Shown here piece after piece: positions 1 to 17,108 of a stretch of DNA of 38,492 nucleotides. The stretch covers positions 1 to 38,492 of IMG/VR virus record IMGVR_UViG_3300017917_004839. One strand, written 5' to 3'. The position numbers and the translations under genes are program-made. Under the pieces are notes generated by a model. The model worked only from the letters and a program-made list of their open reading frames with translations. It ran no database searches and was not told the origin of the DNA. The DNA is from a virus. Position 1 is the stretch's first letter. The number at the start of each line of letters is the position of its first letter.

Positions 1-146
1 AAGTTGGCTGTGCTGAGTTGAAACTTTTGTCCTGTGTTGTCTTGTATTTCATCTTGGGCCAAGCAGCAAGGACGCACAGTACCAATGGGCGAAGCTTCGA
101 GGCTGATCCAAGGCAGCACACAAAATCTATCATGAGGTATATTCAA
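1..146 (-). CDS. Radical SAM protein with N-terminal Twitch domain, partial (cut by left edge)
   Basis: Only the first 48 codons are inside the window. Read on the minus strand from a TTG at 146-144, the frame begins MNIPHDRFCVLPW and continues with SPIGTVRPCC. This closely matches the N-terminal part of the protein at 1396-2679 (FCMLPWIHLHAYPTGEVWPCC), which is the auxiliary cluster-binding (Twitch/SPASM-like) segment found in front of the radical SAM core. The frame is closed by a stop at 161-159, so the start must lie between there and the FCVLPW motif. TTG at 146 overlaps the TGA stop of the upstream gene as TTGA, the analogue of the ATGA couplings used elsewhere in this operon. An in-frame ATT at 149 is a less likely start. 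The competing ATG at 133 is in a different frame and gives a protein without recognisable motifs. The radical SAM core itself lies outside the window and is inferred from the similarity. Confidence 0.72.
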   Translation of the reverse strand, partial: MNIPHDRFCVLPWISLEASPIGTVRPCCLAQDEIQDNTGQKFQLSTAN

Positions 147-1399
147 AATTTGATCTTTCTACCAGCTTGTTGAAATTTCTGCACCAGTTGATCATATTCA
201 GGATGATCGGGATTGTAAATGTTGTTGTCGTCAAACTGTTGTTGTGGCCAGGTGCCCCAATTCCACATTTTTTGAAAATTGATATGAGGTATCCCCAATT
301 GATTGCACAGCTCAACAAACGCAGGAATTTCATTGTAGTTATCACGCTGCACCACAAAGTCTGCTGATAGTTTAGTGTCTGCACCCAGCTGCTGTATCTG
401 CCACTTGACCCATTTTACATTTTCTAACAACAAATTCCAATCCCCGCCCACTCGAGTTTTGGCATAGGTTTCGGCACAGGCAGCATCAAAACTGATTCGT
501 AATTCTTGCACACTGGGCAGCAAGGCCCGAATCTTGTTGGCTTTCTTTTGCAGATAACTGCCATTGGTTTGAATGATGTGACGAATATTGGGTTTGTTTT
601 GAGCAGTGATATAGTCCAAAAGTTCATTGTAAACATCACTGATAAATGGTTCTCCACCACACCAACGTATCAGTATGGGTTGATTTTGTACACGGTCAAT
701 GATTTGTTCCCTTATGACTTGTACTATTCTATCATTGATAGGTCGAATGATGTGGTGTTTGTTGTTGTTGATAACTTCAGTTCTACAACTGGGGCATTTG
801 AAATTGCATGTGTAATCAAAATCAAAAATTAAATTTTTTGGAATTTGATTGACCAAAGTGTCTGCACGAGTTTCAACTGTTAATGGACGGTCATCAACCA
901 CTGGTTCACTGGCATATTGTGTGGGATCAACGTCAGAAAAATAATTACAGATACGGTTGTTGCAGTAAAAATATCTGCCTTTTAATATTTCTTGTCTGAT
1001 ACTCTGTGCTATCTCACTGTTGAGTACTTGATAGATATCCGTGGTCTGCAATATGTTGCCCACAAACAATGGAATCCAACTGGGACTGCTGCAAATATAA
1101 ACATCACCGTTGGAATTTACACCCAGAGTTTCCCAAGGCACTCTGCAAGGACTGGCGCTGAAATATTTCTTGTTGTAAAAAACTTGTTTTTGACGTTGTT
1201 GATTGCCTTGAGCCAATTCGTCGCCAGACTTGATGAGAGCTTCGTGGCTTTGACGCATCATGACTACAAACTGATCTATTTCTTGTTGTATATGACTGTG
1301 ATTGGCCTGCTGACCTGCCACAAAATCATGATAGCTGGGCCAATCTGGACCAGCAAAGGTTTGATAATCACGCTGACTGATAAATGTGCTCAGCTTCAT
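143..1399 (-). CDS. Radical SAM protein with N-terminal SPASM-like domain
   Basis: The 418-aa protein carries the radical SAM signature CxxxCxxC as CNFKCPSC (C198, C202, C205), which holds the [4Fe-4S] cluster that cleaves S-adenosylmethionine. It also has a CGGEP motif (247-251) of the AdoMet-binding strand. Before the core, residues 85-151 contain four cysteines (C85, C103, C146, C151) in a pattern typical of a SPASM/Twitch auxiliary-cluster domain (GDVYIC, then an LxGRYFYCNNRIC segment). In many radical SAM enzymes this domain is C-terminal, so the order here is inverted. Such enzymes carry out radical chemistry on peptides, sugars or small molecules; the substrate is unknown. The ATG overlaps the TGA of the upstream radical SAM gene as ATGA (1396-1399). 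No precursor peptide gene lies next to it. Confidence 0.9.
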   Translation of the reverse strand: MKLSTFISQRDYQTFAGPDWPSYHDFVAGQQANHSHIQQEIDQFVVMMRQSHEALIKSGDELAQGNQQRQKQVFYNKKYFSASPCRVPWETLGVNSNGDVYICSSPSWIPLFVGNILQTTDIYQVLNSEIAQSIRQEILKGRYFYCNNRICNYFSDVDPTQYASEPVVDDRPLTVETRADTLVNQIPKNLIFDFDYTCNFKCPSCRTEVINNNKHHIIRPINDRIVQVIREQIIDRVQNQPILIRWCGGEPFISDVYNELLDYITAQNKPNIRHIIQTNGSYLQKKANKIRALLPSVQELRISFDAACAETYAKTRVGGDWNLLLENVKWVKWQIQQLGADTKLSADFVVQRDNYNEIPAFVELCNQLGIPHINFQKMWNWGTWPQQQFDDNNIYNPDHPEYDQLVQKFQQAGRKIKF

Positions 1400-2679
1400 T
1401 TTTTCAGTGCTTCGAGCTCAGGAATTATATCCAAGCAAGATTCATTGCGTATGGCATCCAGCTGACGAGTCTTAAGCCAAAACTGAGGAATTAATTCACT
1501 ATTATCTGTGGCATTCATGAATGTAATAGCAGATTCGAATCCTTGTGTGGCTCGACGCAACGGATCGCCCACTTGCTTTAGCCATTCTAAATGACTCCAA
1601 TACACCGACTCCAGATGCGCTTTGTAGTCAGGGGGTGCAATGTCAATTCTATAATGAGCAGGATCCTGCAATATATTGATGTTAAAATCCTGAGGTTGAA
1701 TCAGACCTTGTTGTACCCAGCTGCGATGAAACTGTGGTAAATGCAAGGCATTCATTATGCTGAGTGTGGCACTGATGTAAAAATCCACTTCGGGGCAGAT
1801 TTCTAACATTTCTCGTCGATTCTTTTCTACCACTGCCCAGTCCGTACCTTTGCGTATGTATTCTGCTCTGGCACCCATGGCATCCAGACTGGCGCCGATG
1901 GCTACCGATTTGAACTGTTTCCAATATTCAAAGACTGAACGACCTTTTAATTCAGTGTGCGTGAAGTTTGTGTTGTAGATCAGTCTAACATCTGTGCGGC
2001 CACGTTGCAGCAATTCTTCCAGAATATTGTAGTGTTCTTCCATCAACAACGGCTCACCGCCAGCAAAATAGATCTGCTCCACATAGTCCAGGTGAGGAAT
2101 TAATTGTTCCCACATGTCCGTTTCGGTGCGGCCTGCGTAGTTCAATGCTGTGTTACGCTGTTTCCAGTCAGGGCCGGCTAGGCGGGCCTGATCTGCGTAC
2201 CATTGACTGCTGAATATGTGTCCGCAGCTACGACAACGAAGATTGCAAAGATTGCTAAAACGAATGTCCCAATAAGTCATTCGGAAATCAGGCTTGACCA
2301 AATTTATTTTATGAATCTGGTGCCCGTGGTGTTTGTTGGAACTTTGACGATCGCTACGGAATCCCGACGATTCGCGTTCATAACAACGCACACAGTAAGG
2401 ATCAGTTTCGTCGTTGAGCAGGCGTGTGCGCAGTTCTTGCATGCGCGGACTATTCCAAATTTCTTCTAGATTGTTTTGTCTAGCATTGCCCAAGGGTTTG
2501 GCCTTCATACCATCATGTTCGGCAGCACAGCAAGGCCATACTTCTCCAGTGGGATAAGCATGTAAATGAATCCAGGGCAACATGCAAAATGTTTTGGATT
2601 TTTTTAATAAAAATTCTTCTTGTGAATTTAGTTCCACAGGCTTTACTAAATCAGTTGAGTTGTAACTGTATTGAGTCAT
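1396..2679 (-). CDS. Twitch domain-containing radical SAM protein
   Basis: The 427-aa protein has the layout of the N-terminal Twitch radical SAM family. Residues 30-100 contain FCMLPWIHLH, a paired CC (C50, C51), and CVRC (C96, C99), a likely auxiliary iron-sulfur site. The radical SAM core follows with SNLCNLRCRSC (C145, C149, C152) and FAGGEP (205-210). The family is known from bacteria and from environmental phages, but reactions are mostly unassigned. Its start overlaps the stop of the TctC-like gene as ATGA (2676-2679) and its stop overlaps the next radical SAM gene in the same way, so it should be translated together with both. The N-terminal domain is very similar to that of the partial gene at the left edge, so these two may be paralogues. 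Confidence 0.9.
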   Translation of the reverse strand: MTQYSYNSTDLVKPVELNSQEEFLLKKSKTFCMLPWIHLHAYPTGEVWPCCAAEHDGMKAKPLGNARQNNLEEIWNSPRMQELRTRLLNDETDPYCVRCYERESSGFRSDRQSSNKHHGHQIHKINLVKPDFRMTYWDIRFSNLCNLRCRSCGHIFSSQWYADQARLAGPDWKQRNTALNYAGRTETDMWEQLIPHLDYVEQIYFAGGEPLLMEEHYNILEELLQRGRTDVRLIYNTNFTHTELKGRSVFEYWKQFKSVAIGASLDAMGARAEYIRKGTDWAVVEKNRREMLEICPEVDFYISATLSIMNALHLPQFHRSWVQQGLIQPQDFNINILQDPAHYRIDIAPPDYKAHLESVYWSHLEWLKQVGDPLRRATQGFESAITFMNATDNSELIPQFWLKTRQLDAIRNESCLDIIPELEALKK

Positions 2680-3554
2680 TTGGCTTTGTTTATTTCTTCT
2701 CTGAATCTTTCTTGCAATCTGCGAATAGCAGCTATGTTGCGAGCATAATACTGCTCAACTCGTTCTGAGGGCACTACCATTCCACTCAATTGGAAAATTT
2801 CTTGAGAGCCAACCTGTTGTTGAGCAGTTTGCAGTATGGCAGCCAATGTACGACGCATGCCTGCATCCATGTTTCGATGAGCTACCACGATGTTAAACAC
2901 TGTGGGCACATCAATGCCCAGTTCTTTGAGAGTGGGTATGTTTCGGGCCTGCGGCAAACGCTGTGCACAACTGGCTGCATATACCTGCATGCGAGTATTG
3001 GTATGCTGCAAGGCTTCAAAAGCTTCGTATCGGTCAATGGCCAAGTTGACCCCGTGATTGCCTGCTATGTTGACCACTGCATCATTGTTGCTTTTGAATC
3101 CCACATAGGTCACAGGCAGTTTGAATTTTTCACCCAGAGTCAGTGCTGTGAGATGAGCAGCATTACCTGGTCCCACACTGCCTACCATGATTTCACGCAG
3201 TTCTGTCAAGGGTTGGCTTATAATCACTGCCCAGCAGGCTTCGCCCAGGGTCAGCACCGGAACAAAATCATCTTGCTGTACTGTGCCCGATGACACATGT
3301 TCTGCAAATGCCGGAGCAATAATGGCCAAGCTGCGATCATTTATGCCTTGTAGAGCCAGTAATTGATTGCCACCGGGTCGAAATTCCAGCACAAATTTAT
3401 AGGCCGATTGTGATTGGTTGGCTCGATCAATCACTCGCAGCATGGCCGGTGTGCCAGAATGACTGGCGCTGTAGGGCGATAGAATTTTCACAGTTTCCTG
3501 TGCACTGGCCAATTGTGTGACCAACATCAATACAGATAATAATATTTTTTTCAT
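2676..3554 (-). CDS. TctC/Bug-like periplasmic substrate-binding protein
   Basis: The protein (292 aa from the chosen start) begins MKKILLSVLMLVTQLASAQ, a clear Sec signal peptide with a basic start, a hydrophobic core and an ASA cleavage site near residue 18. The mature part resembles the tripartite tricarboxylate transporter binding-protein family (TctC, or Bug in Bordetella): a FRPGGNQLLA segment in the place of the usual RPGAGG loop, a VGSVGPGNAAHL segment, and a PSERVEQYYARN C-terminus. Family members bind carboxylates such as citrate or aromatic acids in the periplasm. The usual N-terminal PGG motif is not conserved, so ligand binding may differ. An upstream in-frame start (3569) exists, but the ATG at 3554 overlaps the preceding stop as ATGA and gives a better signal peptide. 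No TctA or TctB membrane subunits are present, so transport would need host partners or the protein does something else. Confidence 0.82.
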   Translation of the reverse strand: MKKILLSVLMLVTQLASAQETVKILSPYSASHSGTPAMLRVIDRANQSQSAYKFVLEFRPGGNQLLALQGINDRSLAIIAPAFAEHVSSGTVQQDDFVPVLTLGEACWAVIISQPLTELREIMVGSVGPGNAAHLTALTLGEKFKLPVTYVGFKSNNDAVVNIAGNHGVNLAIDRYEAFEALQHTNTRMQVYAASCAQRLPQARNIPTLKELGIDVPTVFNIVVAHRNMDAGMRRTLAAILQTAQQQVGSQEIFQLSGMVVPSERVEQYYARNIAAIRRLQERFREEINKAK

Positions 3555-4876
3555 AATGTTTGATACCACTGTTTTAGTTCTGGAAAATAAGACACAAAAT
3601 CTTTTTGCCTGCGAGCGTCGTACTGCTGATAAAACCGACCAAAATCGTTGTGCAGCTTGGGCATTTCAAATGCATCCGAATGCGGAGTTTTTACCACGTC
3701 AAGATAGTCAATTAGTCGCTGTGTGTGATTGATTTCGTGCTCGTGCAAATAGCTGTGACCACGATGTTCAACCAACCACTGTGCCAAATCTGTTCTGAAT
3801 TGTTCACGCAAGTGATCGGGCAGCACCAGGGCTGATTGAAAGCTGGGGAATCGCAAAATATTTAGCGTGAAGTTTATGCGGTCTCGACCATAAGTCTTTT
3901 TCCATTCCACCAGCTCATTAAGCAGCCTGGGCAGTGTAGTTAAACACAGTGCGTTGATGGTGCACATCACATGCACTGTACGTCCAGCATCCAGCAAGGC
4001 CAGCACATTTTGACGCCACAGTGGATAGTCCAGACCGTCTCTAATATACTCTGCTTGCTTGCCCACTGCTTCCATGGAAGTATAGATTTCCACATCCATG
4101 CCTTCAGTTGAGTCCAGCAGCCGATACACATCCACCTGTGGACCCAGGTTAGAATTGATGGCCAAGCGTGTTTGACTGCGCCCAGGATTGTCGCGAAACC
4201 AGTCAATCAGCTTCCAAGTGGCGCCCGACATCAAGGGTTCGCCGCCAGTGATTCTCAGCTCTTGTAGAGTTCGATGTAGATCCGATTCCCACCAAGCAAA
4301 AAATGCGTCAACATATGGATTGCTTTCGTTAATCGTGTAACGTTGAGCAGCACTGTGAACATGGGTAAAGTGATTGCGCCCATCGCTAATGAGTCCGACA
4401 TATGGTCCGTTATTTTTAATGTCCTTGACCCAAGTGCTACTAAAAGCGGGATTACAATAACTACAAGCGAACTGACAAGTACGGTCAAACGCAATTTCCA
4501 GCGTTCGAAGGTCGACGTCTTGATCTGGTGGTGTATTTCTAGCTTCATGCAGGGCCTGTATGGGATAAATTTTGCTCTTGTACACACGATCGCTCACAGC
4601 ATCACGACCCATGTCTTCGATCTTCCAGCAATACTCACAGCCAGCAGGACGTTCTCCGGCCAGCATTCGACGCCGATCATCTTTCTTTTGATCGGTATTG
4701 TGCAGCAGCTTAGGGTTGGCCGTGACTTTATCAATGTCCACCAAATGAGCTGGGGGATGATGGCAGGATGTTGTCATCCCGCTACCTAACCAAATGGTAG
4801 CATTGTACCATTTTGCTGCACAAAAACTGTCAGAAAGTTTGTCTAAAACTTCCTTGCGAAATTCTAAATCATTCAT
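3551..4876 (-). CDS. Radical SAM protein, SCHHP-type N-terminal Twitch variant
   Basis: The 441-aa protein has a radical SAM core with DRTCQFACSYC (C134, C138, C141) and RITGGEP (208-214). In front lies an N-terminal cysteine domain (C19, C38, C80, C83) with the pattern TSCHHPPAH, NPKLLHNT and a CEYCWKIED ending. The same pattern occurs in the protein at 5920-7293, so the two form a subfamily distinct from the FCxLPW-type proteins at 1-2679. Both also share a C-terminal motif with an aromatic FYxxY/FxxF stretch followed by RR...DF...FPE.K.W. The start ATG is set by an ATGAATGA overlap with the preceding gene (4869-4876), and the stop overlaps the TctC-like gene start. The substrate is unknown. 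Confidence 0.9.
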   Translation of the reverse strand: MNDLEFRKEVLDKLSDSFCAAKWYNATIWLGSGMTTSCHHPPAHLVDIDKVTANPKLLHNTDQKKDDRRRMLAGERPAGCEYCWKIEDMGRDAVSDRVYKSKIYPIQALHEARNTPPDQDVDLRTLEIAFDRTCQFACSYCNPAFSSTWVKDIKNNGPYVGLISDGRNHFTHVHSAAQRYTINESNPYVDAFFAWWESDLHRTLQELRITGGEPLMSGATWKLIDWFRDNPGRSQTRLAINSNLGPQVDVYRLLDSTEGMDVEIYTSMEAVGKQAEYIRDGLDYPLWRQNVLALLDAGRTVHVMCTINALCLTTLPRLLNELVEWKKTYGRDRINFTLNILRFPSFQSALVLPDHLREQFRTDLAQWLVEHRGHSYLHEHEINHTQRLIDYLDVVKTPHSDAFEMPKLHNDFGRFYQQYDARRQKDFVSYFPELKQWYQTL

Positions 4877-5936
4877 TTATAAATCGGAAAAATCTATCGG
4901 GGAATTGAGCGCGAGTTTGAACTGCCAATTCGCGGTGATGTTGCTGGTTGTATTTACTAACATTGTAGCACTCTGCAAGGAATGAGTCAAGATCCTGTTG
5001 ACACAAATCATGAATTACATCAGCAATTCTTTGCAGCCTGTCTTGATTGTTTTCAATCGAATCAAAATTTTCATCTATAACATGTGCATATGTTTGAAAT
5101 CCCAAATTTTTCAAATCTCTGTAAAATCCTGAATTGGCCACCATGATCCAAGGATGACCCATCACAATGGGTTTCCAAGTCTTTTCTGTTCTAAATGAGT
5201 AAGGGATGTCAAACACAGTCTCGCTGACCACACTGAAATAGGTGTCAATATAGGGTGCCGGAGTCAAATAGATTTCTCCCCACTCGTTGTTGAACAAATC
5301 AAACTTTACATAAGAATTGTCACTGACAGGATTGGCACTGTGGCTGTAGCGAGCAACTTCGTAATCAGCGGGCAAGGTACGAGTTTGTCCTGCGGCTGCA
5401 TCCAAATTGGTCCATAAGCTGCGTTCCAGCACACCTGTGTTGTTTAATTTTTCAATCAATTGGGTTCTGTGTGGTCGTCTACGCCCATTTAAAAAAAGAA
5501 AATCATAGGGTTTGTTGTTTTTTTGATATATTGATTCACTGTGTGTGGCTGCTGCAATATTTTCTTCATAGTCTAATATTTCAGGCAAGAACTTGTCATA
5601 GCGCAAACAAGGCCATTCCGGGGGCATGTCGCCGCCGCCGATCAATTTTATTTTGCGTTCTAGCAGCGTGTCACGAAAACCCAAGCGTGTGAGTTGTCCC
5701 ATTAGAGTTTGGGATCCTTCGTGTGGATTGCTGATCACCAGCTGTATGTGATTGTTTTGCACAAGACTCAACAGTAATTCTTTGTGCTGTATACACTGCT
5801 GCCGGCCTATCACATACACAGCATCAGGTTGTACATCGTGCTGTGCCAAGTCCCAAAACTCTGAGTCAGCCCAGGGCTGCAACAGTTTATACACTTCGCA
5901 AAAAGTGTCTAGTACCAGCTTAGGCACGGTTGGCAT
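4869..5936 (-). CDS. Glycosyltransferase-like protein (exostosin/fucosyltransferase-type C-terminal fold)
   Basis: This protein of 355 aa (358 if a GTG at 5945 is used) has no signal peptide. Its middle carries FLFLNGRRRPHRTQLI, and its C-terminal half carries SFRTEKTWKPIVMGHPWIM, then a GFQTYAHVIDENFDSI segment. A pattern of E-K-(T/I)-W-(K/R)-P followed by a hydrophobic strand and a GFxTF motif is typical of nucleotide-sugar binding halves in exostosin-like and GT10-like glycosyltransferases, and is frequent in phage accessory regions. I infer a sugar transfer role, with the acceptor unknown. The same C-terminal pattern is seen in the protein at 8148-9149. The start is uncertain: ATG at 5936 overlaps the upstream radical SAM gene by 17 nt, GTG at 5945 by 26 nt. 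The 3' end overlaps the next radical SAM start by 8 nt. Confidence 0.6.
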   Translation of the reverse strand: MPTVPKLVLDTFCEVYKLLQPWADSEFWDLAQHDVQPDAVYVIGRQQCIQHKELLLSLVQNNHIQLVISNPHEGSQTLMGQLTRLGFRDTLLERKIKLIGGGDMPPEWPCLRYDKFLPEILDYEENIAAATHSESIYQKNNKPYDFLFLNGRRRPHRTQLIEKLNNTGVLERSLWTNLDAAAGQTRTLPADYEVARYSHSANPVSDNSYVKFDLFNNEWGEIYLTPAPYIDTYFSVVSETVFDIPYSFRTEKTWKPIVMGHPWIMVANSGFYRDLKNLGFQTYAHVIDENFDSIENNQDRLQRIADVIHDLCQQDLDSFLAECYNVSKYNQQHHRELAVQTRAQFPDRFFRFINE

Positions 5937-7293
5937 GATACTCACACTCTTGCCACCACGATTTCATTTCAGGAAATGTGCGCAAAAAGTCTGTGCCACG
6001 ACGTCGATCGTGTTCTGAGAAGAAACGATAAAAATCAGCTTTGGTAGCAGTATGGTCTTGACCTTGTCCTTCGCGCATCCAGGCAATGTCTCTGCGCAGT
6101 CGCTGTACTTCGTAGTCTCTAAAACCATGCAAGCCTGTGGTCACTTGTGTTGCCATCCAGTCTGCACACTGTTCCAGTTTGGCAGCATAGCTTTCTGGCA
6201 AGATCTGCAGACTTTGCCAGGCTGGGTTTCTCAGTACAGGTGTATCAAACCACACACGTTGATAAGTTGTTGAGTAGCTTTGTCGTAGACGCAGGATCCA
6301 TTCCATGTACTCACGGAATCCCGACACTGATAAGTTGTTCATTGTGATGATAAATGTCAAACTGTTGCGATATGGAACTTCGTGCAAGTAACGATTCACA
6401 TTTTGATACACACGGTCTGCATTCATGCCATTTCTAATGTATTCTGCCTGAAACCCATTGCCCGAATCCAAACTCACATACTGCATGAAATGTTCAATGT
6501 TGGTGTTGCACAGTTGTTTGACATAGCCCAGATACTTTTCAAACAAAGCATCTTCCACTGAAAAGTTTGAAGTCACGTTTAGGTGTAGGTCAGGTTTAGG
6601 CAGGGCCAACACATAGTCAAATACTCGATAGGTATTGCGATCCATGAGTGGCTCGCCACCAGTCATGCGGAAGTGTCTAAGCTGAGGGTAAAGCTGGGGC
6701 CACCAAGACCAAAACGCTTCAACATAGGGATTATGTTCCCTGGCAGGTATAACACGCCTGGCCCCTGTAAAATGTTCAGGAGCATTATGTGGTACAGATG
6801 TAGGGAAAGCACCATGACGGTTAGCTTCGTCTGCCCAGCTAGAACTGAACTGGGGACTACAGTAACTGCACCTTAGATTACAAGCGTTGTTAAAATTAAC
6901 CTCAACATAACTAGGAACCACATCATCTTCTATGCCGGTTGAATTGCGAATGCGTTCAAAATCCACGGCGGCCCAAGGCTCACCAGACCTGTAGTGTCGA
7001 TCGCTCATTTGACCCAGGTCTTCCATGTTCCAGCAGTATTGGCATTCTGAGGGTCGCTCGTTGCGCAGCATGATTTGACGCTGTTGTTTTTTGTAGGCAG
7101 TGTTGTGAAGTCCCCCGGGATTGTTCTCAATGTCACCGAGTTCGATTCGATGCAAGGGAGGATGATAGCATGAGTTGGTATGTCCTGTGGTCAGGTGTAG
7201 GCTGACCTGTTTCCATTTGGCCAAACACAGTGCAGGCCCCAGTTCGGCTTGCATTTGCTCGGCGCCCGACATAAAATCACTTTTATTTTCCAT
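5920..7293 (-). CDS. Radical SAM protein, SCYHP-type N-terminal Twitch variant
   Basis: The 457-aa protein has the core motif NNACNLRCSYC (C138, C142, C145) and MTGGEP (210-215). The N-terminal auxiliary domain (C23, C42, C84, C87) has NSCYHPPLH, a GLHNT motif and CQYCWNMED, the same plan as the protein at 3551-4876. The pair probably arose by duplication and then diverged. The two genes are separated only by the glycosyltransferase-like gene, with overlaps on both sides. The start ATG at 7293 lies 11 nt inside the upstream gene; an internal ATG at 7272 is an alternative. The presence of two members of one subfamily suggests two successive or parallel modification steps, which is inference. 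Confidence 0.9.
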   Translation of the reverse strand: MENKSDFMSGAEQMQAELGPALCLAKWKQVSLHLTTGHTNSCYHPPLHRIELGDIENNPGGLHNTAYKKQQRQIMLRNERPSECQYCWNMEDLGQMSDRHYRSGEPWAAVDFERIRNSTGIEDDVVPSYVEVNFNNACNLRCSYCSPQFSSSWADEANRHGAFPTSVPHNAPEHFTGARRVIPAREHNPYVEAFWSWWPQLYPQLRHFRMTGGEPLMDRNTYRVFDYVLALPKPDLHLNVTSNFSVEDALFEKYLGYVKQLCNTNIEHFMQYVSLDSGNGFQAEYIRNGMNADRVYQNVNRYLHEVPYRNSLTFIITMNNLSVSGFREYMEWILRLRQSYSTTYQRVWFDTPVLRNPAWQSLQILPESYAAKLEQCADWMATQVTTGLHGFRDYEVQRLRRDIAWMREGQGQDHTATKADFYRFFSEHDRRRGTDFLRTFPEMKSWWQECEYHANRA

Positions 7294-8167
7294 TTACAAA
7301 AAACACTTTCTTTTCTTCTGCCCATATTTGATCACCATGATACACCTCAGGACAAAATTTACATTGGTCAATGGCATGGGTTAGATCGTTTATAAATTGA
7401 GATTTTTGTTCTATTGTGTGATCGATACTCAATGATTTATATCCATGCATCAGCGCACGGTCTTCTGTGGAAAGGTCAAAGACATGCTGCTCAGAAAATT
7501 CTGGCAACAATGCTGCTACTCCACATTTGTACAGTTGTCCTTTGAACATGGTGTAGCAATATTTCATTGAGCAATTGTCATGTGCTTTTTTTACATCGCT
7601 GTTGTATAACGTGAATCCTTGTGCATCAGGTAGCCGGATTAGACTGCCTTGATGAAACCACCAATTATACTCTATCAATACACTGATGCGGTTACGATCG
7701 GTTATGGTTAGTTTTTGATCGTAAGGATTGTCGGTATTAAAATGATATGTAAAAGGTCCAGTAAGGAAATTTTCTACTTCCTGTATGATAAATTTTTTAT
7801 ATTTTTTGTTGTGTATGCCCACTTTGATATGGCAGTTTTTGTGTGACAACAAATAATCGTACAGTCCCGACACCTTGTTTAACCTATAGGCATTGGTCAC
7901 TACATTCAATCGGGTTTTTGGCCAAAGTGAGTGCACGCCATCTATCCATTCCATGATGTCAGGATTCAACAGCGGCTCTCCGCCAAGTATTCCAATGCGT
8001 TCAGTGAATTCTACTTGTTCGGCCCATTGTGCATAGATGTGCTGATAATCTTTCCAACGTTGAAATCCTTTGAATTTATAGTTGTTGAATCTGTTGCAAC
8101 CTTCACATGCCAAGTTACAAACATTGGTGATGTAAAATTCAATATTTTTAATTCTGAGTGGTTTCAT
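7283..8167 (-). CDS. Radical SAM protein, short, with C-terminal SPASM/Twitch-like cysteines
   Basis: The 294-aa protein starts directly with the radical SAM core: ITNVCNLACEGCNRF (C17, C21, C24) and ILGGEPLL (60-67). After the core, a C-terminal cysteine set (C199, C204, C215, C269, C272, with the end CKFCPE) looks like an auxiliary-cluster domain. It therefore has the usual core-then-SPASM order, unlike the other radical SAM proteins in this operon, which carry the cysteine domain first. An AAGG Shine-Dalgarno-like sequence lies about 9 nt before the ATG. The gene overlaps the 3' end of the 333-aa gene by 20 nt. This type of short radical SAM protein is seen in marine and freshwater phage genomes; its substrate is not known. 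Confidence 0.9.
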   Translation of the reverse strand: MKPLRIKNIEFYITNVCNLACEGCNRFNNYKFKGFQRWKDYQHIYAQWAEQVEFTERIGILGGEPLLNPDIMEWIDGVHSLWPKTRLNVVTNAYRLNKVSGLYDYLLSHKNCHIKVGIHNKKYKKFIIQEVENFLTGPFTYHFNTDNPYDQKLTITDRNRISVLIEYNWWFHQGSLIRLPDAQGFTLYNSDVKKAHDNCSMKYCYTMFKGQLYKCGVAALLPEFSEQHVFDLSTEDRALMHGYKSLSIDHTIEQKSQFINDLTHAIDQCKFCPEVYHGDQIWAEEKKVFFVNGK

Positions 8168-9149
8168 TGAAGATTGCCTTGAAGTGGTCTTCCTTTAATT
8201 CTAGAAGCCTGTGCAAATTATAATCCAGCACTGGGGTCATATCCTGATACATGGACTGCAACTCTGACACACTCAGCTGACTCAGTTGTTTTATGTTTTC
8301 AATCATGGCAGGCACATGACATCCATCGGGGTCTTCGCTGTAGCCTTCGTTCCACCATTGATCAAAAGTACGAAACCCCAACCTACGAAGATTTTTTATT
8401 GTTCCTGCTGAACCCTGAATCATAAATGGAGTACGCATCAAAACTGGGCGCCAGATCTTTTCGTCCACATAAAATGTGTTGCCACTGGTGAAAGTCAAAC
8501 TTACCAACTCAACAAAAAACTGCGGATAGTATTTTAAAATATTGAAAGTTTGATCTGCGCCAATGGGATAACGCACCGTGGATTCCAATTTTATAGGTGC
8601 GTGATTCAGCAAATCAAATGCCCATTGCAACTGTTGACTAGTGATAGCTGAATCATGCATCAAATCTTCTAGTCCAATGAATTCCCGATGATAAGAATCA
8701 TGCACGTTACAATGAAAGGACTGTAGAGTTTTTGATGCCTGATTGGCCCATAGATAGCTGCCTAGATGTAATCTTGCCTTGTTGCCGTGCCCCACAAAAT
8801 GACCAAAGTGACAAAAATGGTTGTCAAATATTTTTTTTGTGTTTGGTTTTTGCCGGGCAGCATGATGTGCTGCTGCTAATTCATAGTTTTGGTGCTGTCG
8901 TATCACACAATATCTGGGATGCTGCTCGAGAAAATTAGCAGTGTGAATTTCAATACACTGTGGCGGGTAATCAAATGCCTGGCAAATTTCATCCAACCAG
9001 GAGTATATACCATTGCTGTCACAACAAGGACCTTCGCCGTTGAGATCGATTTTGATTGGTCGGACACCTGCTACCATGGCTTTGACAATGGCAATCATGG
9101 CCTGATCCTTGCCAAAAATCTTGCCTTCGCTGGTTTGAAGTTTTATCAT
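8148..9149 (-). CDS. Glycosyltransferase-like protein, paralogue of the 4869-5936 product at its C-terminus
   Basis: The 333-aa protein shows a C-terminal half with FYVDEKIWRPVLMRTPFMI followed by IKNLRRLGFRTFDQWW. This is the same order of motifs as in the 355-aa protein at 4869-5936 (TEKTWKPIVMGHPWIM, then LKNLGFQTY). The N-terminal half is different and has a cysteine/histidine-rich region (FDNHFCHFGHFVGHGN) that I do not recognise. I infer a nucleotide-sugar-using transferase, but the acceptor and sugar cannot be read from the sequence. It is divergently transcribed from the DegT-type gene with only 30 nt between the start codons. No Shine-Dalgarno sequence precedes its ATG, while a TAAATATC motif ends 7 nt upstream, which would fit a leaderless or very short leader. 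Confidence 0.55.
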   Translation of the reverse strand: MIKLQTSEGKIFGKDQAMIAIVKAMVAGVRPIKIDLNGEGPCCDSNGIYSWLDEICQAFDYPPQCIEIHTANFLEQHPRYCVIRQHQNYELAAAHHAARQKPNTKKIFDNHFCHFGHFVGHGNKARLHLGSYLWANQASKTLQSFHCNVHDSYHREFIGLEDLMHDSAITSQQLQWAFDLLNHAPIKLESTVRYPIGADQTFNILKYYPQFFVELVSLTFTSGNTFYVDEKIWRPVLMRTPFMIQGSAGTIKNLRRLGFRTFDQWWNEGYSEDPDGCHVPAMIENIKQLSQLSVSELQSMYQDMTPVLDYNLHRLLELKEDHFKAIFNETTQN

Positions 9150-9156
9150 AGGGAAA

Positions 9157-9176
9157 GATATTTAACAGTAAATATC
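9157..9176. promoter_or_regulatory. Inverted repeat between divergent genes, possible bidirectional late-type promoter
   Basis: GATATTTA (9157-9164), a 4-nt spacer ACAG, and TAAATATC (9169-9176) form a perfect 8-bp inverted repeat in the 30-nt gap between two divergent start codons (9149 minus, 9180 plus). Each arm presents TAAATATC facing its own gene, resembling the core of the T4 late promoter TATAAATA. Neither gene has a convincing Shine-Dalgarno sequence. It could equally be an operator or a chance AT-rich palindrome. Confidence 0.4.
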
Positions 9177-9179
9177 CAC

Positions 9180-9770
9180 ATGCATGACACAATTGACCAG
9201 TTTGAAAATCGCATTGCACAATTTTACGGCAGTGCTTACGCTGTGTCAACTGATTGTTGTACACATGCTGTTGAGCTGTGCCTGCGCTATCTGGGATCCA
9301 ACGATGTAACCTGCCCAACACATACCTATGTCAGTATTCCCATGACCTTTGAAAAACTGGGACTGCGCTGGTCCTGGAACCACAATACCTGGGAAAATTA
9401 CTATTACATTGGCAATACCAACATTGTGGACGCTGCTGTGTACTGGAAACCCAACGGGTACATTCCGGGATCATTGATGTGTTTGAGTTTTCAATTTCGC
9501 AAACATCTCAATCTCATACGCGGTGGTGCCATTTTGACCAACGATGCAGAGCAATATCGTACTTTAAAAAGCATGAGCTTTGATGGTCGTTTTGGCGATG
9601 CTCCTTGGCGCGATCAAAACATCACGCACATGGGTTATCACTACTACATGCCCATTGAAACTGCCAAACTGGGCCTGGAAAAAATTGACGCTGCCATTGC
9701 CACTGAGCCTAAACAGTGGAGTTATCAAGATTATCCCTATTTGCCAGACTTTGCTGTGTTTCGGTCTTGA
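9180..9770 (+). CDS. Minimal DegT/DnrJ/EryC1/StrS-type aminotransferase-like protein
   Basis: This is the only plus-strand gene in the window. From the ATG at 9180 it codes for 196 aa. It follows the DegT order: an N-terminal FENRIAQFYGSAYAVST segment, CPTHTYVSIPMTFEKLG, NIVDAAV (D84, the position that contacts the pyridine nitrogen of PLP), CLSFQFRKHLN with the candidate PLP lysine K108, RGGAILTND, and a MGYHYYMPIETAKLGLEKI segment. Full-length family members have about 370-400 residues. Here the first-third linker is short and the whole C-terminal small domain is missing, yet the reading frame is intact. DegT proteins make amino sugars for surface glycans. The reading frame is open upstream to 8889, but that part is antisense to the neighbouring gene and lacks family motifs. 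Its 3' end overlaps the SGNH gene by 62 nt, convergently. Activity is uncertain. Confidence 0.75.
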   Translation: MHDTIDQFENRIAQFYGSAYAVSTDCCTHAVELCLRYLGSNDVTCPTHTYVSIPMTFEKLGLRWSWNHNTWENYYYIGNTNIVDAAVYWKPNGYIPGSLMCLSFQFRKHLNLIRGGAILTNDAEQYRTLKSMSFDGRFGDAPWRDQNITHMGYHYYMPIETAKLGLEKIDAAIATEPKQWSYQDYPYLPDFAVFRS

Positions 9771-10455
9771 TGTGTTGATACAATAGTTGTGCATAGTATT
9801 GGTGTGCACGAGCATCCGGATGTACACCGTCCACCGTCCATTGATTTTTTTTGGCAATGTCTTCAAGGCAGTCTTGTTGAAACACACAGTTCCAATCTAC
9901 CAAGCGGCGCAGATGATCAAAACGTCGAAAAAGTTTTATAGGTCGCCAGTGCATGAACAGATAAGGTATGCGTTGACTTTGCAGAACTGCCTGTAAACTG
10001 ATCATTTTCAAATATTCCGACTCTAATATTTGCTTGTAACCCACAACATTGTGGCACGGTCCAAATACTCGACTCACACTGTCTTGTCGTTGACCCTGCA
10101 TATACCCCAGACTGAAAATCCAATTTTTTTCCACATAGTCTTGATCGTTGATAGGATAAACTATTTTGCTGGGCCAGTCATTCTGTGCACTTTGATAGGC
10201 GGAAGTATTCTTGCTGTCAGCAAACTGAGAAATATCTTCTACCCTTAAATCCATGCGCCCACATTCGGCCCACATGATCAGCACAAGATCGTAAGAGCGG
10301 CGAGCTATTTCACTGATCGTGGTTTCATGAATGTATGTGTTGCCGCAGCCAGCTTGAGACAAATTCACCATGTCACAATTCAGCAGTTGCTGTAGATAGT
10401 ATGGCCAGGAATCGGGCCCTCTGCTCACACTGGCTCCGTTGATCAGTACATTCAT
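9709..10455 (-). CDS. SGNH/GDSL-type hydrolase or acyltransferase-like protein
   Basis: The 248-aa protein starts MNVLINGASVSRGPDSWPYY, a block I with GAS (nucleophile candidate S9) in the place of GDS. A block II-like segment NLSQAGCGNTY supplies glycine and N39 for the oxyanion hole. Near the end WTVDGVHPDARAHQYY gives the DxxH pair (D209, H212) of block V. A canonical GxND block III is not seen; MWAECGR stands in that place. SGNH enzymes cleave or transfer acyl groups on polysaccharides and lipids. No signal peptide is visible, so it would act in the cytoplasm. The start overlaps the stop of the ANL ligase gene as ATGA (10452-10455), which suggests they act on the same acyl or acetyl group, although that is inference. 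Confidence 0.75.
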   Translation of the reverse strand: MNVLINGASVSRGPDSWPYYLQQLLNCDMVNLSQAGCGNTYIHETTISEIARRSYDLVLIMWAECGRMDLRVEDISQFADSKNTSAYQSAQNDWPSKIVYPINDQDYVEKNWIFSLGYMQGQRQDSVSRVFGPCHNVVGYKQILESEYLKMISLQAVLQSQRIPYLFMHWRPIKLFRRFDHLRRLVDWNCVFQQDCLEDIAKKNQWTVDGVHPDARAHQYYAQLLYQHIKTETQQSLANRDNLDNSTV

Positions 10456-11531
10456 TGATACATATCCACCAACATGCTGCGAGACACCTTGCCGGCTGCG
10501 TTAACTGGTATGGAATCTACCTTGTGTACCAACTTGGGTGCACAATGAGCATCTATGCTTGTCATGGCGTTTCTTACCTGTTGTTCGGTGGCTGTGCCAG
10601 TATAGATGCACATCACACGACCCCGTCCAAACACAGCAACTTGATCCAGTCCGGGTACTGTATTGTACAACTGATTTTCAATGCTGAGAGGATCTATTTT
10701 GTATCCGCGAATGTCAATTCTGTCTCGAATGCGTCCTAAAATTTTGTAATAACCTTGCTGATCTTGCTCAGCAATGTCTCCGGTACAGTACCAGTCTTGA
10801 GTGTACACACTGGGTCCTTTTATTTCCAATAACCCGTTGACAATTCTGGCTTCAACACCCGAGGGCAGGCCCACAGTGCCCACACGTTGTTCACCGTGCA
10901 GTGGATTGGTAAAGCAATGGCTGCAGGCCTCAGTCATACCAAATGCTTCAATTACCGGCCGACCACTCCAGGCTTTCAAGTCAAGATACAATTGATCGGG
11001 CAGCGCACTGGATGCTGATCTTACAAAACGCAGATCTGTAAATTTTTGTCGCATTAACAAGCGTAAAAAGTCAGGAATGGCGCTGATAAAAGTGGGTGAC
11101 CAATCAATTTTGCTGCGAAGATCTGCAGGCTTGATGTAGCGTACTTCGCATTGGGTTTTTTGTGCTGTCCAGTACAGACCAAGACCATGAGCATGCCACA
11201 ATGGCATAATGCTTAGATAGCGATCATTGGCATTGATATCATATGCTTGAGCTATGGTTGTGGCCACAGCATCTAGTTGAGCTCTAGAGAAGCTGTAAAA
11301 TTTACTGTCGCCAGTGGTGCCTGATGTGTACCAAAGTGCAGCCTCATTGTAATCGCCGCCATTGCGTCGATTGATGCCGGTGTCAGTGACCAACAGCGAA
11401 TAATCTGAATGATCCAAAAGATATTTGAGTCTGGCTGGCGAACTGGCTGGGTTCACAATCATCAAGCTGTAATCTTGATATTGTGGAATATACAGCTCGG
11501 GATTTTGAACACACAGCACTGCTCTTTTCAT
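10452..11531 (-). CDS. ANL-family adenylate-forming ligase (AMP-binding), N-terminally short
   Basis: The 359-aa protein contains the main motifs of acyl-CoA synthetases and NRPS adenylation domains: the phosphate loop WYTSGTTGDSKF (67-78), PLWHAHGL (110-117), FGMTE (197-201), YCTGDIA (248-254), the hinge region ILGRIRDRIDIRGYKIDP (264-281), and a NAAGKVSRS end with the catalytic lysine K348. It should therefore activate a carboxylic acid as the acyl-adenylate. About 120-150 residues of the usual N-terminal subdomain are missing, so the acid pocket may be reduced. No carrier protein or CoA-using partner is visible in the window. It starts 1 nt after the previous stop and overlaps the SGNH gene. 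An ANL ligase is uncommon in phages. The acid substrate is unknown. Confidence 0.88.
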   Translation of the reverse strand: MKRAVLCVQNPELYIPQYQDYSLMIVNPASSPARLKYLLDHSDYSLLVTDTGINRRNGGDYNEAALWYTSGTTGDSKFYSFSRAQLDAVATTIAQAYDINANDRYLSIMPLWHAHGLGLYWTAQKTQCEVRYIKPADLRSKIDWSPTFISAIPDFLRLLMRQKFTDLRFVRSASSALPDQLYLDLKAWSGRPVIEAFGMTEACSHCFTNPLHGEQRVGTVGLPSGVEARIVNGLLEIKGPSVYTQDWYCTGDIAEQDQQGYYKILGRIRDRIDIRGYKIDPLSIENQLYNTVPGLDQVAVFGRGRVMCIYTGTATEQQVRNAMTSIDAHCAPKLVHKVDSIPVNAAGKVSRSMLVDMYQ

Positions 11532-11532
11532 G

Positions 11533-12459
11533 TTACCAACCTTCTTGTTGGCGAATCACATCAATTTCTCTGACCATGACACCACGATTGTGCCAGTTGC
11601 TGAGATAGTGATGTTTAAAAAATTCGCTTTGCTCTTTTTCTAAAATCAGCATGGGCAGATCTAACTGTGTATTGAGTTCAGTGGCCACACGATTGGCCAC
11701 AATTCTAGGTTGTTGATCTTGCACTGTGTTCCATAACTTGGCCAGCTTGTCAAAATCTTGTACCTCTCGATAATCCCAGTTTGTGAGCATGGTCATGTAT
11801 GTGCCCATGCGGCTACCAGCTATGGCCCATTCACCGTAGTCCACGTCCGCACCAATGTTATGCCAAATGGTCAAATGATCAAGATTTCTTTGATGCACAC
11901 GATTTTTGAAATCTGCCACCGAAGGTTTTGCGCCTTTGTTCAAACACATCTTGACGCCTTCCCTAAAACCAGCACGCCAAGCGTGGAATGCATCACTATT
12001 GGGATAGGTAGTGGAGTAACAATCGTGCATGGCCCAGTACAAAGGATCAAAACAAAACTCTACCTGTGTTTCATCACGACCGTCGGTGTTTTCATGAGTT
12101 CGCATGCTGGCCACAAATTCCTTGGTCCAAGAACTTATGCCGCCGTTGCCGTACATCAATCCATTGATATGGTTACGAGCTCGCCAGCGGAACACAGCAT
12201 TCTCATATTCTTCATTAGGAAAAACAAGCGTTTGATTAAAGAACGACGGATCCGGGAGGTTGTCACCATCGATGAGAATGAATCTATCTGTAGTCGACGA
12301 TGCGGCTGCCGCTTTGTGAGCAGCATCGCTGCCCTTAACACCGTCCACCCGTCGGGCCCAAGGCACCATGTTCTTAATTTTGACCCAAAACTCTTCTTTG
12401 TTAGGTTCGTCATAACTCAAATAGATACAATCTAAATCTGCTACATCAATTGACTTCAT
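11533..12459 (-). CDS. GT-A-like glycosyltransferase candidate with IDGDN motif
   Basis: The 308-aa protein begins with a strand-loop pattern (LDCIYLSYDEPNKEEFW), then RRVDGVKGSDAAHKAA and RFILIDGDNLPDP (59-71). A hydrophobic strand ending in DGD is typical of the metal- and nucleotide-sugar-binding DxD site of GT-A folds. The rest (VFRWRARNHINGLMYGNGG, and a DAFHAWRAGFREGVKM helix) is not assignable to a named family by eye. A family of such proteins occurs in T4-like environmental phages. It overlaps the preceding 117-aa gene by 14 nt; a GGAG lies about 11 nt upstream of the ATG. Function as a glycosyltransferase is inference from the DxD-like motif and the neighbours. Confidence 0.6.
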   Translation of the reverse strand: MKSIDVADLDCIYLSYDEPNKEEFWVKIKNMVPWARRVDGVKGSDAAHKAAAASSTTDRFILIDGDNLPDPSFFNQTLVFPNEEYENAVFRWRARNHINGLMYGNGGISSWTKEFVASMRTHENTDGRDETQVEFCFDPLYWAMHDCYSTTYPNSDAFHAWRAGFREGVKMCLNKGAKPSVADFKNRVHQRNLDHLTIWHNIGADVDYGEWAIAGSRMGTYMTMLTNWDYREVQDFDKLAKLWNTVQDQQPRIVANRVATELNTQLDLPMLILEKEQSEFFKHHYLSNWHNRGVMVREIDVIRQQEGW

Positions 12460-12799
12460 TTGTTTTTGTTCTCCAACGTTGATGTGGTTGATCTGTGTCT
12501 ACCACAATGCTGACATCACTGGGATAACACGGTGTGCCAACGCCTGTGTCATTGGGCACAAGCTTTTTAAAGGAAACTGTGTGAATCTCTTCCAGTTGAC
12601 CATTGCGTACTCGCACACGCATGCTGGCTCGCTGATACTGCTCGGGTGTTACTTCTATGTAATTACCTGGTTTGTCTTCCTGACTGTAAAACAACGGTTG
12701 TCCTGCTTCGTCGTGGTACAATCGCCAAAACACCACAGGAGGCTGCCAGGGTTCTAGATTTTGCCAAACTTTCAAAAAGTTTTCTGTGGTTTCATTCAT
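12446..12799 (-). CDS. Small conserved-type phage protein, unknown function
   Basis: The 117-aa protein starts MNETTENFLKVWQNLEPWQ and contains FWRLYHDEAGQPLFYSQED, VTPEQYQRASMRVRVRNG and a proline/aspartate-rich end. I do not recognise a domain. It has no signal peptide, transmembrane segment or cysteine cluster. The reading frame is open 19 codons further upstream (12856), but the ATG at 12799 lies in an ATGAATGA overlap (12792-12799) with the stop of the upstream glycosyltransferase-like gene, the same junction type as at 4869-4876, so I choose it. Being tied translationally on both sides to GT-like genes, it may be an accessory protein of the pathway. Confidence 0.7.
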   Translation of the reverse strand: MNETTENFLKVWQNLEPWQPPVVFWRLYHDEAGQPLFYSQEDKPGNYIEVTPEQYQRASMRVRVRNGQLEEIHTVSFKKLVPNDTGVGTPCYPSDVSIVVDTDQPHQRWRTKTNEVN

Positions 12800-13568
12800 T
12801 GTGCCAGTCCTTGACATGCAGATGAAAGAAGCCCCACTGTGCCACTGTTTGAACACGCATGGGATTGTATTCCCAGATCAATTCATCGGTCCACTTGCGT
12901 GCCGAAAATGGATTGACCCCAGTTTTCATGTGTACTATTTGCGGACCCAGGCCTGGTGGCAGTGTGACTTGTTCGGGTCCCATAATCTGTGCTGCCATAG
13001 CATATACAACATCAGTACTGGGCACATCTTCGGGAAACTTCAACAGCTTCCGATACTCAGCCCAGTGTTCAAATATGTTCTTGACCAGTGCAAAAAACTC
13101 CTGTGCAGTCTTGCTGAGTCTCCAATATGTGACCGCATTGTACACGTCAGGCAGGTTGTTGGCATCAAACACTTGTCTATAGCGTCGATTCTCAGCGGGC
13201 TGATCATAGAATGTTCTACAGCCTTGGCTGATCACAACATCGCGATGTTCAAACATGCTCCACAAATGATCAACTGCACTGGCCACCATTAGATCTGCTT
13301 CTAGTTTGATGGTTTGTCTAAACGGGGTGTTATGGAACACCATCCAGTCATTGGCATAGGGGTTTAGCGTATCGATGCTGTCTACAACTTGTGTGTACTC
13401 AAACAATGCAGGTTCAGCTGCATACTTTTCATTGGTCAGCAAACAAATTTTGGCATCGGGGTGATGCTGCAACAGTGTTTTGGCTAGATGTCTGGCAGCG
13501 TCTACATAGTCAACTTTGCCCACGTTAAAAGCAGGTATGATATACCCACGTTCAGCTACAGGTCGCAA
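12792..13568 (-). CDS. Glycosyltransferase-like protein (GT-A type, degenerate DxD), TTG start
   Basis: The 258-aa protein begins near GYIIPAFNVGKVDYVDAARH and shares its plan with the neighbouring 285-aa protein (ALIFAFNNEHTDYVGLAAW). Both look like GT-A proteins that handle a nucleotide sugar. The expected metal motif reads IKLEADLMV (88-96), with E replacing the first D. The longer frame opens at 13619, but those residues are encoded inside the upstream gene. A TTG at 13568 is preceded by GGAGG with a 6-nt gap, the best ribosome-binding site in the operon, and puts the start just before the conserved strand. The overlap with the upstream gene is then 17 nt. Substrate unknown. Confidence 0.65.
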   Translation of the reverse strand: MRPVAERGYIIPAFNVGKVDYVDAARHLAKTLLQHHPDAKICLLTNEKYAAEPALFEYTQVVDSIDTLNPYANDWMVFHNTPFRQTIKLEADLMVASAVDHLWSMFEHRDVVISQGCRTFYDQPAENRRYRQVFDANNLPDVYNAVTYWRLSKTAQEFFALVKNIFEHWAEYRKLLKFPEDVPSTDVVYAMAAQIMGPEQVTLPPGLGPQIVHMKTGVNPFSARKWTDELIWEYNPMRVQTVAQWGFFHLHVKDWHNE

Positions 13569-14409
13569 TTGCTGCCTCCAAATGTTTTTTGCCCATGGCA
13601 TGAAAGTCCATGCCCACAAGACTGGTGCGTTTGGGCTTGCCGTCCCGATCAGTGTAGTTAAAAGTCCAGACTTCTTGATTGCGATACAATTTTTCCAGGT
13701 CAGGCAGCCGCATTACATCAGCACTGGGTTCTCTTGCTGCTGTGATTTCATAGTCTGGCAGCGCACTGGGCATGCGCCATGGTATTGCATCCACACACCG
13801 AGTATGCCCATTCACAATGCCTAATGCAATGCTGAGTGCATAATCATTGCGATAGTTGTGCTCAACTATGCTGTACAGATTTCTATAATGACTCCAGTTT
13901 TGTTTGATCATGGCCATGGATTCAAATATAAACTGTGCAGTGTTGGACTTGCGAAACATCATCACAGTAGCCCACCACATGGGAAACTGGTTGCGGCCAA
14001 ATGTTGTTAAAAAATCGTTTTCTGGTCTGCTGATGTCATAGGCCTGATTGAATGCCAAAAAATCTTGCTGTGCTTGCAACACTGTAGACAGTGTATTGCT
14101 GCAAATTACATAGTCAGCATCAAGTACCAATGTTTGTTCCCAGGGTGTGAGAGAGTATGCATCAGTTCTGCTGGCATTGTGCCAAGACACAGTTTGTTGA
14201 TAGTCTTCAAACCAACGTTTGCCACCAGACTGTGATTCAGCGTAGATAACTTGGTCTACATCTTTTAATCTGGAATCTGTTGGTGTATCAGTGATCACAG
14301 CAACAGGAATATTCAAGTATCTGTGTACGCGACGAGAACTCCAAGCGGCCAGGCCGACATAGTCAGTGTGTTCATTGTTGAATGCAAATATCAGTGCGCC
14401 AGTAGTCAT
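13552..14409 (-). CDS. Glycosyltransferase-like protein (GT-A type, DAD motif)
   Basis: The 285-aa protein starts MTTGALIFAFNNEHTDY and contains TLVLDADYVICSN (93-105), a canonical strand-plus-DxD site (D97, D99) of GT-A glycosyltransferases, as well as PMWWATVMMFRKS and a TRCVDAIPWRMPS region. The start ATG at 14409 is fixed by an ATGA overlap (14406-14409) with the preceding gene; an upstream in-frame ATG at 14466 would lie within that gene. It is related to the downstream 258-aa protein, which suggests a tandem duplication with one copy keeping an intact metal site. Many T4-like phages carry such proteins after the tail-fibre genes, where they may glycosylate virion or host surface components; this is family-level inference. 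Confidence 0.7.
   Translation of the reverse strand: MTTGALIFAFNNEHTDYVGLAAWSSRRVHRYLNIPVAVITDTPTDSRLKDVDQVIYAESQSGGKRWFEDYQQTVSWHNASRTDAYSLTPWEQTLVLDADYVICSNTLSTVLQAQQDFLAFNQAYDISRPENDFLTTFGRNQFPMWWATVMMFRKSNTAQFIFESMAMIKQNWSHYRNLYSIVEHNYRNDYALSIALGIVNGHTRCVDAIPWRMPSALPDYEITAAREPSADVMRLPDLEKLYRNQEVWTFNYTDRDGKPKRTSLVGMDFHAMGKKHLEAAIATCS
13566..13579 (-). promoter_or_regulatory. Shine-Dalgarno site deciding a TTG start
   Basis: On the minus strand, GGAGG at 13579-13575 region (TGGAGGCAGCAA) is followed after 6 nt by TTG at 13568-13566. This makes TTG, and not the ATGs at 13619 or 13601, the likely start of the glycosyltransferase-like gene. Confidence 0.6.
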
Positions 14410-14711
14410 CGTTTGCTTGAGTTTTGTTCGTGTTCCACCAACCATGCTGTCATTTGCTCTTGCCACCGCTGCTGACTCAAAGCAAACAGTTCTCGAGTGT
14501 TGATCTTAACTGGTGTTTCGTACAAGTCTAATATTACTGCTTCGGTGCCCGGACATGACAATAAAGTTGCATGAAGCTCTGGACCTGCACGCCACATTCC
14601 GCCGTTGTAGGCGAAAACCATTTTGGCTTGATATTTTTCTTTTAAAATTCTTTTTGCGGCCGCATGATCAAAACGGGCTCGCGCATGAGCAACAAGATTT
14701 TCAATGTTCAT
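14406..14711 (-). CDS. Small conserved-type phage protein at head of accessory operon
   Basis: The protein of 101 aa from ATG 14711 (106 from a GTG at 14726) reads MNIENLVAHARARFDHAAAKR at its start (first 20 residues cover the helical part) and later contains FAYNGGMWRAGPELHA and LDLYETPVKINTRELF. I have a sense of similar small proteins next to fibre genes in T4-like marine phages, but no function is known. The start is decided by the promoter: TACAAT ends 7 nt before ATG 14711, so transcription would begin at or next to the ATG and the GTG at 14726 would be outside the message. No Shine-Dalgarno sequence is present, consistent with a leaderless start. Confidence 0.72.
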   Translation of the reverse strand: MNIENLVAHARARFDHAAAKRILKEKYQAKMVFAYNGGMWRAGPELHATLLSCPGTEAVILDLYETPVKINTRELFALSQQRWQEQMTAWLVEHEQNSSKR

Positions 14712-14717
14712 TGGCTG

Positions 14718-14746
14718 ATTGTACACTTAAAGTGTAAAAAAGTAAA
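14718..14746 (-). promoter_or_regulatory. Sigma70-like promoter for the accessory operon
   Basis: On the minus strand TTTACT (14746-14741) and TACAAT (14723-14718) are separated by exactly 17 nt. They match the -35 and -10 consensus at 4/6 and 5/6 positions. The expected transcription start falls at about 14711, on the ATG of the first gene. The -35 element overlaps the end of the terminator hairpin region. Confidence 0.5.
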
Positions 14747-15756: not shown

Positions 15757-15769
15757 TGTCTTTTCCCAA

Positions 15770-17059: not shown

Positions 17060-17081
17060 TTGGGTTACTCCGTCCTAACTT

Positions 17082-17093
17082 TATTTATTTACC
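17082..17093 (-). promoter_or_regulatory. T4 late-promoter-like motif before the tail fibre gene
   Basis: The minus strand reads GGTAAATAAATA here. The embedded AATAAATA (17089-17082) matches TATAAATA at 7 of 8 positions. It lies in the 49-nt gap between the 201-aa gene and the tail fibre start. Whether a T4-like late sigma factor is used cannot be seen in this window. Confidence 0.45.
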
Positions 17094-17108
17094 GATAATC
17101 TATACATA

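Follow-up and report, generated by a model that had tools for sequence, protein, structure and literature searches.

Marine phages with many radical S-adenosylmethionine (SAM) genes are on record. The T4-like environmental virus TARA_ERS488813_N000010 carries 12 of them (Nishimura et al. 2017, PMC5332604), which the accessible part of that paper groups as Fe-S proteins, without stating there an operon order, a subfamily, a bacterial counterpart or a glycan pathway; and the host recognition cluster of pelagimyophages combines glycosyltransferases (GTs) with radical SAM cassettes (mSystems 2020, PMC7029224). Here, 38,492 bases from a large-phage record in IMG/VR (IMGVR_UViG_3300017917_004839, the whole stretch being called the window) were analysed. 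On the minus strand of this fragment, tail genes are followed by a GT-like block and then by an overlapping run that encodes five radical SAM proteins in full and a sixth in its first part only. It resembles TARA_ERS488813_N000010 in the many radical SAM genes per phage genome, and shares with the pelagimyophage cluster the location after tail genes, the GTs, the variable cassettes and the proposed change of the host surface; with its GTs and cassettes in a hypervariable stretch behind the tail genes, it is a host recognition cluster as defined for pelagimyophages (PMC7029224). In pelagimyophages, however, the radical SAM genes are described as added cassettes between two genomes (PMC7029224), whereas a conserved five-gene core distinct from the cargo is found here.

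The five core families, named A to E, all score far above the 170-bit cut-off of N_Twi_rSAM (NCBIfam NF033640), a broad subfamily with a name that indicates no function, which is represented here by five distinct members in a fixed operon with named partners. Vibrio phage K566/K567 likewise holds an array, with six clustered N_Twi_rSAM matches in one isolate genome, which are only about 22-25% identical and, in the tree, stand apart from families A-E. The enzyme classes of aminoglycoside biosynthesis (BtrN, DegT, StrB, TobZ/NodU) are also matched together in the window and its relatives, but the resemblance is one of parts only, as here the Twitch domain is N-terminal, five radical enzymes are present and not one, and no cyclitol synthase was seen. 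A literature search, in a collection without most subscription papers, returned no title or abstract describing this operon. Many radical SAM genes per marine phage are already known, but in the papers searched neither the conserved core nor the bacterial counterpart of it appears to have been described.

In the direction of transcription, the core radical SAM genes of the window are D (5920-7293, SCYHP motif, 311 bits to NF033640), C (3551-4876, SCHHP, 294 bits), A (1396-2679, FCxLPW, 400 bits) and the start of B (3-146), all on the minus strand. The B gene is truncated by the contig end, and its stub, an N-terminal Twitch sequence (FCVLPW...RPCC), matches the start of N_Twi_rSAM with 30 bits over 33 residues and groups with family B, the full protein of which has 405 amino acids (aa) in relatives. 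Protein A has a Pfam SPASM match over the cut-off and a Radical_SAM match just below it; C is matched by neither Pfam domain and yet passes NF033640, and a pattern search for its gene matched viral contigs at least 598 times. All five families A-E retain CxxxCxxC and an N-terminal C...C...CxxC, as seen in their consensuses and in the invariant Cys of alignment A1, which was too diverse for use as a search query. Two further radical SAM genes on the same strand are variable cargo. The 143-1399 protein (family 32), in the slot between A and B, has an N-terminal SPASM/Twitch region, with SPASM (PF13186) preceding Radical_SAM (PF04055), both over cut-off, and 16 relatives in viral contigs; the small 7283-8167 protein, in the slot before D, has Radical_SAM (37 bits) as its sole Pfam domain and 12 relatives, and its Cys-rich C-terminus resembles SPASM/Twitch, though no model calls it. 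The original prediction had listed exactly these five complete proteins and the edge start of the sixth, with all coordinates right; on profile search 1396, 3551 and 5920 passed N_Twi_rSAM, while 143 (98 bits) and 7283 (36 bits) fell below it. The window radical SAM proteins scored only 18-44 bits against the antiviral Viperin model (NF038283, cut-off 180 bits). An AlphaFold model of A (pLDDT 66) was judged too weak for use.

Conservation was determined in 81 unique contigs, i.e. the window and the 80 best matches to 3551, with their genes grouped into families; this sample was picked by likeness to a single member, and phages with subsets alone may be under-counted. IMG/VR relatives were retrieved for four of the window radical SAM proteins. 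The transcription order comprises tail proteins, a small protein, two GT-like proteins, another small protein, a GT-A-fold transferase (11533), a variable slot, D, a GT-like protein (4869), C, A, B, E, a 347-aa protein and a carbamoyltransferase, identified as NodU-type by Pfam. C and A were present in all 81 contigs, D in 80, the 4869 and 11533 families in 79 each, B in 78, E in 74, the 347-aa protein (no match in Pfam or PDB) in 67 and the carbamoyltransferase in 65, many of the absences being contig or locus ends. Most core junctions overlap (median gap -4 to -26), as in the window, where the same-strand start/end pairs are 8148/8167, 7283/7293, 5920/5945, 4869/4876, 2676/2679, 1396/1399 and 143/146. 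An amidinotransferase lies next on the opposite strand in 31 contigs (PDB: arginine:glycine amidinotransferase, E 5e-15). From the relatives, the rest of B, E and the carbamoyltransferase are predicted past the left edge of the window.

The proposal of an overlapping phage operon with several architectural types is supported by profile scores and overlaps far beyond chance and by a layout that recurs in 81 unique contigs. Because the same tail-to-operon layout repeats in all these contigs, an assembly join of a bacterial island and a phage contig, the outcome that would have undone the proposal, is ruled out. The six genes are not one unit: four belong to the core (5920, 3551, 1396 and the stub), while 143 and 7283 occur in only 6 and 5 of the 81 contigs. 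Along with the TctC-like, AMP-binding, SGNH-like and 8148 genes, the latter two form cargo found in 3-9 contigs each, and 137 genes from 62 families are inserted in the slot from 11533 to D alone. Nor are six such genes exceptional for a phage, as had been thought. The run is normal gene content for this phage group, in which 27 IMG/VR records (about 150-364 kb) had between 5 and 21 N_Twi_rSAM genes apiece, and 12 radical SAM genes in a marine T4-like virus were already published (PMC5332604). Since A and D had distant matches only among 50,697 isolate phage records, and none in the large phages nearest by baseplate protein, the core operon seems, so far, confined to uncultured phages. Plasmids yielded two weak matches only. 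Some other phage contigs (L244-L247, L249, L250 and L258) are arranged otherwise, with a carbamoyltransferase, several GT-A-family genes of the 11533 type and then N_Twi radical SAM genes.

An initial scan of cellular genomes that used A as the sole query found nothing. The bacterial survey covered one phylum, Bdellovibrionota (bacteria of predatory type), that of a Bacteriovorax metagenome-assembled genome, in which 95 of 291 genomes had N_Twi_rSAM genes (counts ignore relatedness). Orthologs of all five families A-E were found in one chromosomal region (L232), next to rpmA, obgE and rsfS, which are named from sequence. E orthologs above 350 bits occurred in 7 genomes and C orthologs above 460 bits in 12, with both in six; the GT-A family was present in 18 genomes, all 18 within the 95 with N_Twi_rSAM, often adjoining an N_Twi gene. 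By blastp, the window and other freshwater proteins (a label we presume from the metagenome numbers) were 36-51% identical to their Bdellovibrionota orthologs, and paralogs 22-31% identical to one another. The trees of A, B, C, D and E agreed in grouping freshwater and marine phages with Bdellovibrionota outside, the support of some joins being 80-93. Recent tandem duplication was ruled out, because the paralogs share just 22-31% identity and the trees are congruent. Five non-redundant paralogs in a fixed phage order, all with orthologs in one bacterial region, support the multi-step pathway suggested from the window. A set of five non-redundant radical SAM enzymes in a fixed operon would be unusual for any genome, and this one is widespread in large phages. 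NF033640 can now be divided into subtypes with partners and with a counterpart in cells, and its function becomes testable in a bacterium rather than in an uncultured phage. As a separate observation, radical SAM genes, both N_Twi and other ones, are clustered in many Bdellovibrionota genomes (L220-L239), some with at least 20 candidates per genome.

Glycan-related genes accompany the enzymes in both settings. In the marine contig L240 the order is GT-A, D, a relative of the 347-aa protein, C, A, B, E, a DUF6071 (SGNH-like) protein and the carbamoyltransferase, with five of five radical SAM proteins passing NF033640 at 170 bits, and the opposite-strand neighbours are an NDP-sugar (nucleoside diphosphate sugar) epimerase, two DegT aminotransferases, a PIG-L deacetylase and a Gfo/Idh/MocA oxidoreductase. 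The Bdellovibrionota regions hold GT2 proteins, an ABC-2 exporter with its ATPase and nucleotidyltransferases, and in one of them (L234, 1-2651, minus strand) a single open frame encodes both carbamoyltransferase domains and then SPASM and Radical_SAM. Genes for a PqqD-like protein and for an ABC exporter of polysaccharide type lie near this fusion gene. A further contig, L189, had been binned as Candidatus Pacearchaeota archaeon ARS103, the bin of which gave 10 N_Twi_rSAM matches; a Pacearchaeota host was rejected, as the contig has phage-like genes and the B-E-carbamoyltransferase end of the operon. L189 is probably a mis-binned phage, and marine phage is probably a contaminant of the bin or its whole content.

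The Twitch enzyme BtrN catalyses the oxidation of a hydroxyl group on a cyclitol, and sugars or cyclitols receive amidino groups from StrB-type enzymes and carbamoyl groups from those of the TobZ/NodU type. From the gene set and its order, the co-inheritance, the Cys motifs and the glycan neighbours, we infer a substrate, reaction types and a surface location, and give an about even chance to the operon being a conserved multi-step radical pathway that tailors a surface glycan. D, C, A, B and E would work in sequence on one substrate family, the [4Fe-4S] cluster at each CxxxCxxC cleaving SAM to abstract a hydrogen; the N-terminal Twitch cluster would most likely be an electron acceptor, so that the net reactions on a sugar or cyclitol would probably be oxidations (hydroxyl to ketone, BtrN-like), epimerisations or deoxygenations. 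The GT-A transferase 11533 and other GT-like proteins may build or transfer the unit, and the aminotransferase, amidinotransferase and carbamoyltransferase, the last two past the contig edge in relatives, may finish it. In the light of the BtrN, StrB and TobZ/NodU chemistries, a coherent guess is radical oxidation with transamination, amidination and carbamoylation as the further links of the chain. If the enzymes share one substrate, the operon encodes a radical cascade whose target would probably be sugars, a substrate class with few characterised radical SAM enzymes. A glycan substrate, already named as possible in the original prediction, is supported as plausible by the L234 carbamoyltransferase fusion, the GT2, ABC-2 and nucleotidyltransferase genes of Bdellovibrionota and the amino-sugar set of L240. 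The product would most likely be placed on a host surface glycan during infection, altering phage receptors, a location suggested by the operon position and the published pelagimyophage argument (PMC7029224). The most far-reaching version, a complete multi-radical pathway of large phages, shared with Bdellovibrionota, with an aminoglycoside-like sugar (oxidised, aminated, amidinated and carbamoylated) remodelling the infected-cell surface, is unlikely.

Several points weigh against glycan tailoring. Most characterised SPASM/Twitch enzymes use peptides, and we know of no substrate or activity for any NF033640 member; the best PDB sequence match to A is 8vpo, a radical SAM core protein serving as reference structure in a paper on ribosomally synthesised and post-translationally modified peptides (RiPPs); one bacterial region (L234) includes the PqqD-like protein; the GT assignment of 4869 and 8148 derives from motifs alone, and the GT-A fold match of 11533 has low TM-scores; and glycan neighbours, being common in phage host-recognition regions, could reflect position alone. 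A RiPP-type pathway, with a small ribosomal peptide as the target and the gene for it at some other place in the phage or its host, would agree with the typical role of radical SAM/SPASM enzymes as RiPP maturases, as well as with the 8vpo match and the PqqD-like protein. In the 73 complete regions from D to E, however, no small peptide gene was found, namely only three gaps >60 bp and four small open reading frames, none homologous between contigs, in accord with the earlier statement that a RiPP product is not supported; RRE or PqqD-like domains were absent from the scanned core proteins of the window, with a PqqD-like one in that single Bdellovibrionota region only, and no RiPP-type export or peptidase gene was seen, making this pathway quite improbable. 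A virion protein as the target, e.g. the upstream tail proteins (14782-17714), which GT-like proteins would also glycosylate, has a small but real chance: the position right after the tail genes is constant in 81 contigs and SPASM/Twitch enzymes often use proteins or peptides, but the Bdellovibrionota five-enzyme set and its GT-A partner sit by housekeeping genes and not tail genes, and the carbamoyltransferase fusion and amino-sugar genes indicate sugars.

Phages elsewhere apply QueE-like radical SAM enzymes and carbamoyl transfer to nucleic acids, and radical enzymes plus a carbamoyltransferase might thus hypermodify phage DNA or host tRNA; this is highly improbable given that the window proteins score about 19-22 bits against the QueE model, compared with its cut-off of 260, and that the phage context is one of tail and glycan genes, not replication, and the bacterial context one of glycan genes. 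Finally, the host-recognition region may gather genes independently, the array having arisen from repeated capture and duplication. The 137 genes of 62 families between 11533 and D, and 143 and 7283 as such cargo, speak for this, but for the core it is already disfavoured, as the order is the same in freshwater and marine phages, five trees are congruent, one bacterial region has all five orthologs and the paralogs are only 22-31% identical; we consider unlinked cargo a decidedly unlikely explanation of the array.

The GT-A-fold transferase (11533-12459, minus strand, DGDN motif), which belongs to the conserved core and precedes the radical SAM run on its upstream side, gave an AlphaFold model of pLDDT 80, whose PDB fold matches are GT-A/nucleotidyltransferase proteins with modest to low TM-scores. 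The protein between D and C (4869-5945, minus strand) lies outside named families, with no match in Pfam, NCBIfam, PHROG or PDB, and is glycosyltransferase-like judging from its motif F..VTET...EK..KP...P....G..GF.TF; a GT10-like assignment was dropped as a PDB sequence match was absent, and a 320-aa Bdellovibrionota gene after C was rejected as its relative. A second GT-like protein of the same motif class (8148-9149, minus strand), about 20% identical to it (alignment A5), is cargo in 9 of the 81 contigs. Between the tail genes and 11533, a conserved block without Pfam matches (12446-14726, minus strand; families 12, 6, 7 and 10 in 66-76 contigs) consists of a small protein (12446-12856), two GT-like proteins (12792-13619 and 13552-14466) and another small protein (14406-14726).

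Between C and A, a secreted TctC-like periplasmic binding protein (2676-3554, minus strand) is inserted in 3 of the 81 contigs, with a signal-peptide-like start (MKKILLSVLMLVTQLASA) and a Pfam TctC score of 26.2 bits, slightly below the cut-off of 27; it had no pattern match in viral contigs and weak homologs only. In the slot before D, an SGNH/GDSL-like protein (9709-10455, weak DUF6071 match) and an AMP-binding (adenylating) enzyme (10452-11531, Pfam 93.5 bits, 6 contigs), both cargo on the minus strand, possibly form an acyl-decoration cassette. On the plus strand, a DegT-like aminotransferase fragment (about 9066-9770, start uncertain) lies between two operon genes, overlapping both, and parts the radical SAM run from the genes on its right; shorter than usual, it may be decaying or compact. 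Rfam gave no match. The tail or virion proteins (14782-17714, minus strand), with a Peptidase_G2 match near the cut-off in 15770-17059, keep their order in relatives and anchor the operon position, and the 32090-35515 protein resembles baseplate wedge proteins of Sinorhizobium phage Phosso, Agrobacterium phage Atu_ph07, Pseudomonas phage PA5oct and others (about 32-35% identity). Between the baseplate and tail genes, a single 4733-residue protein (17887-32088, minus strand) is probably structural.

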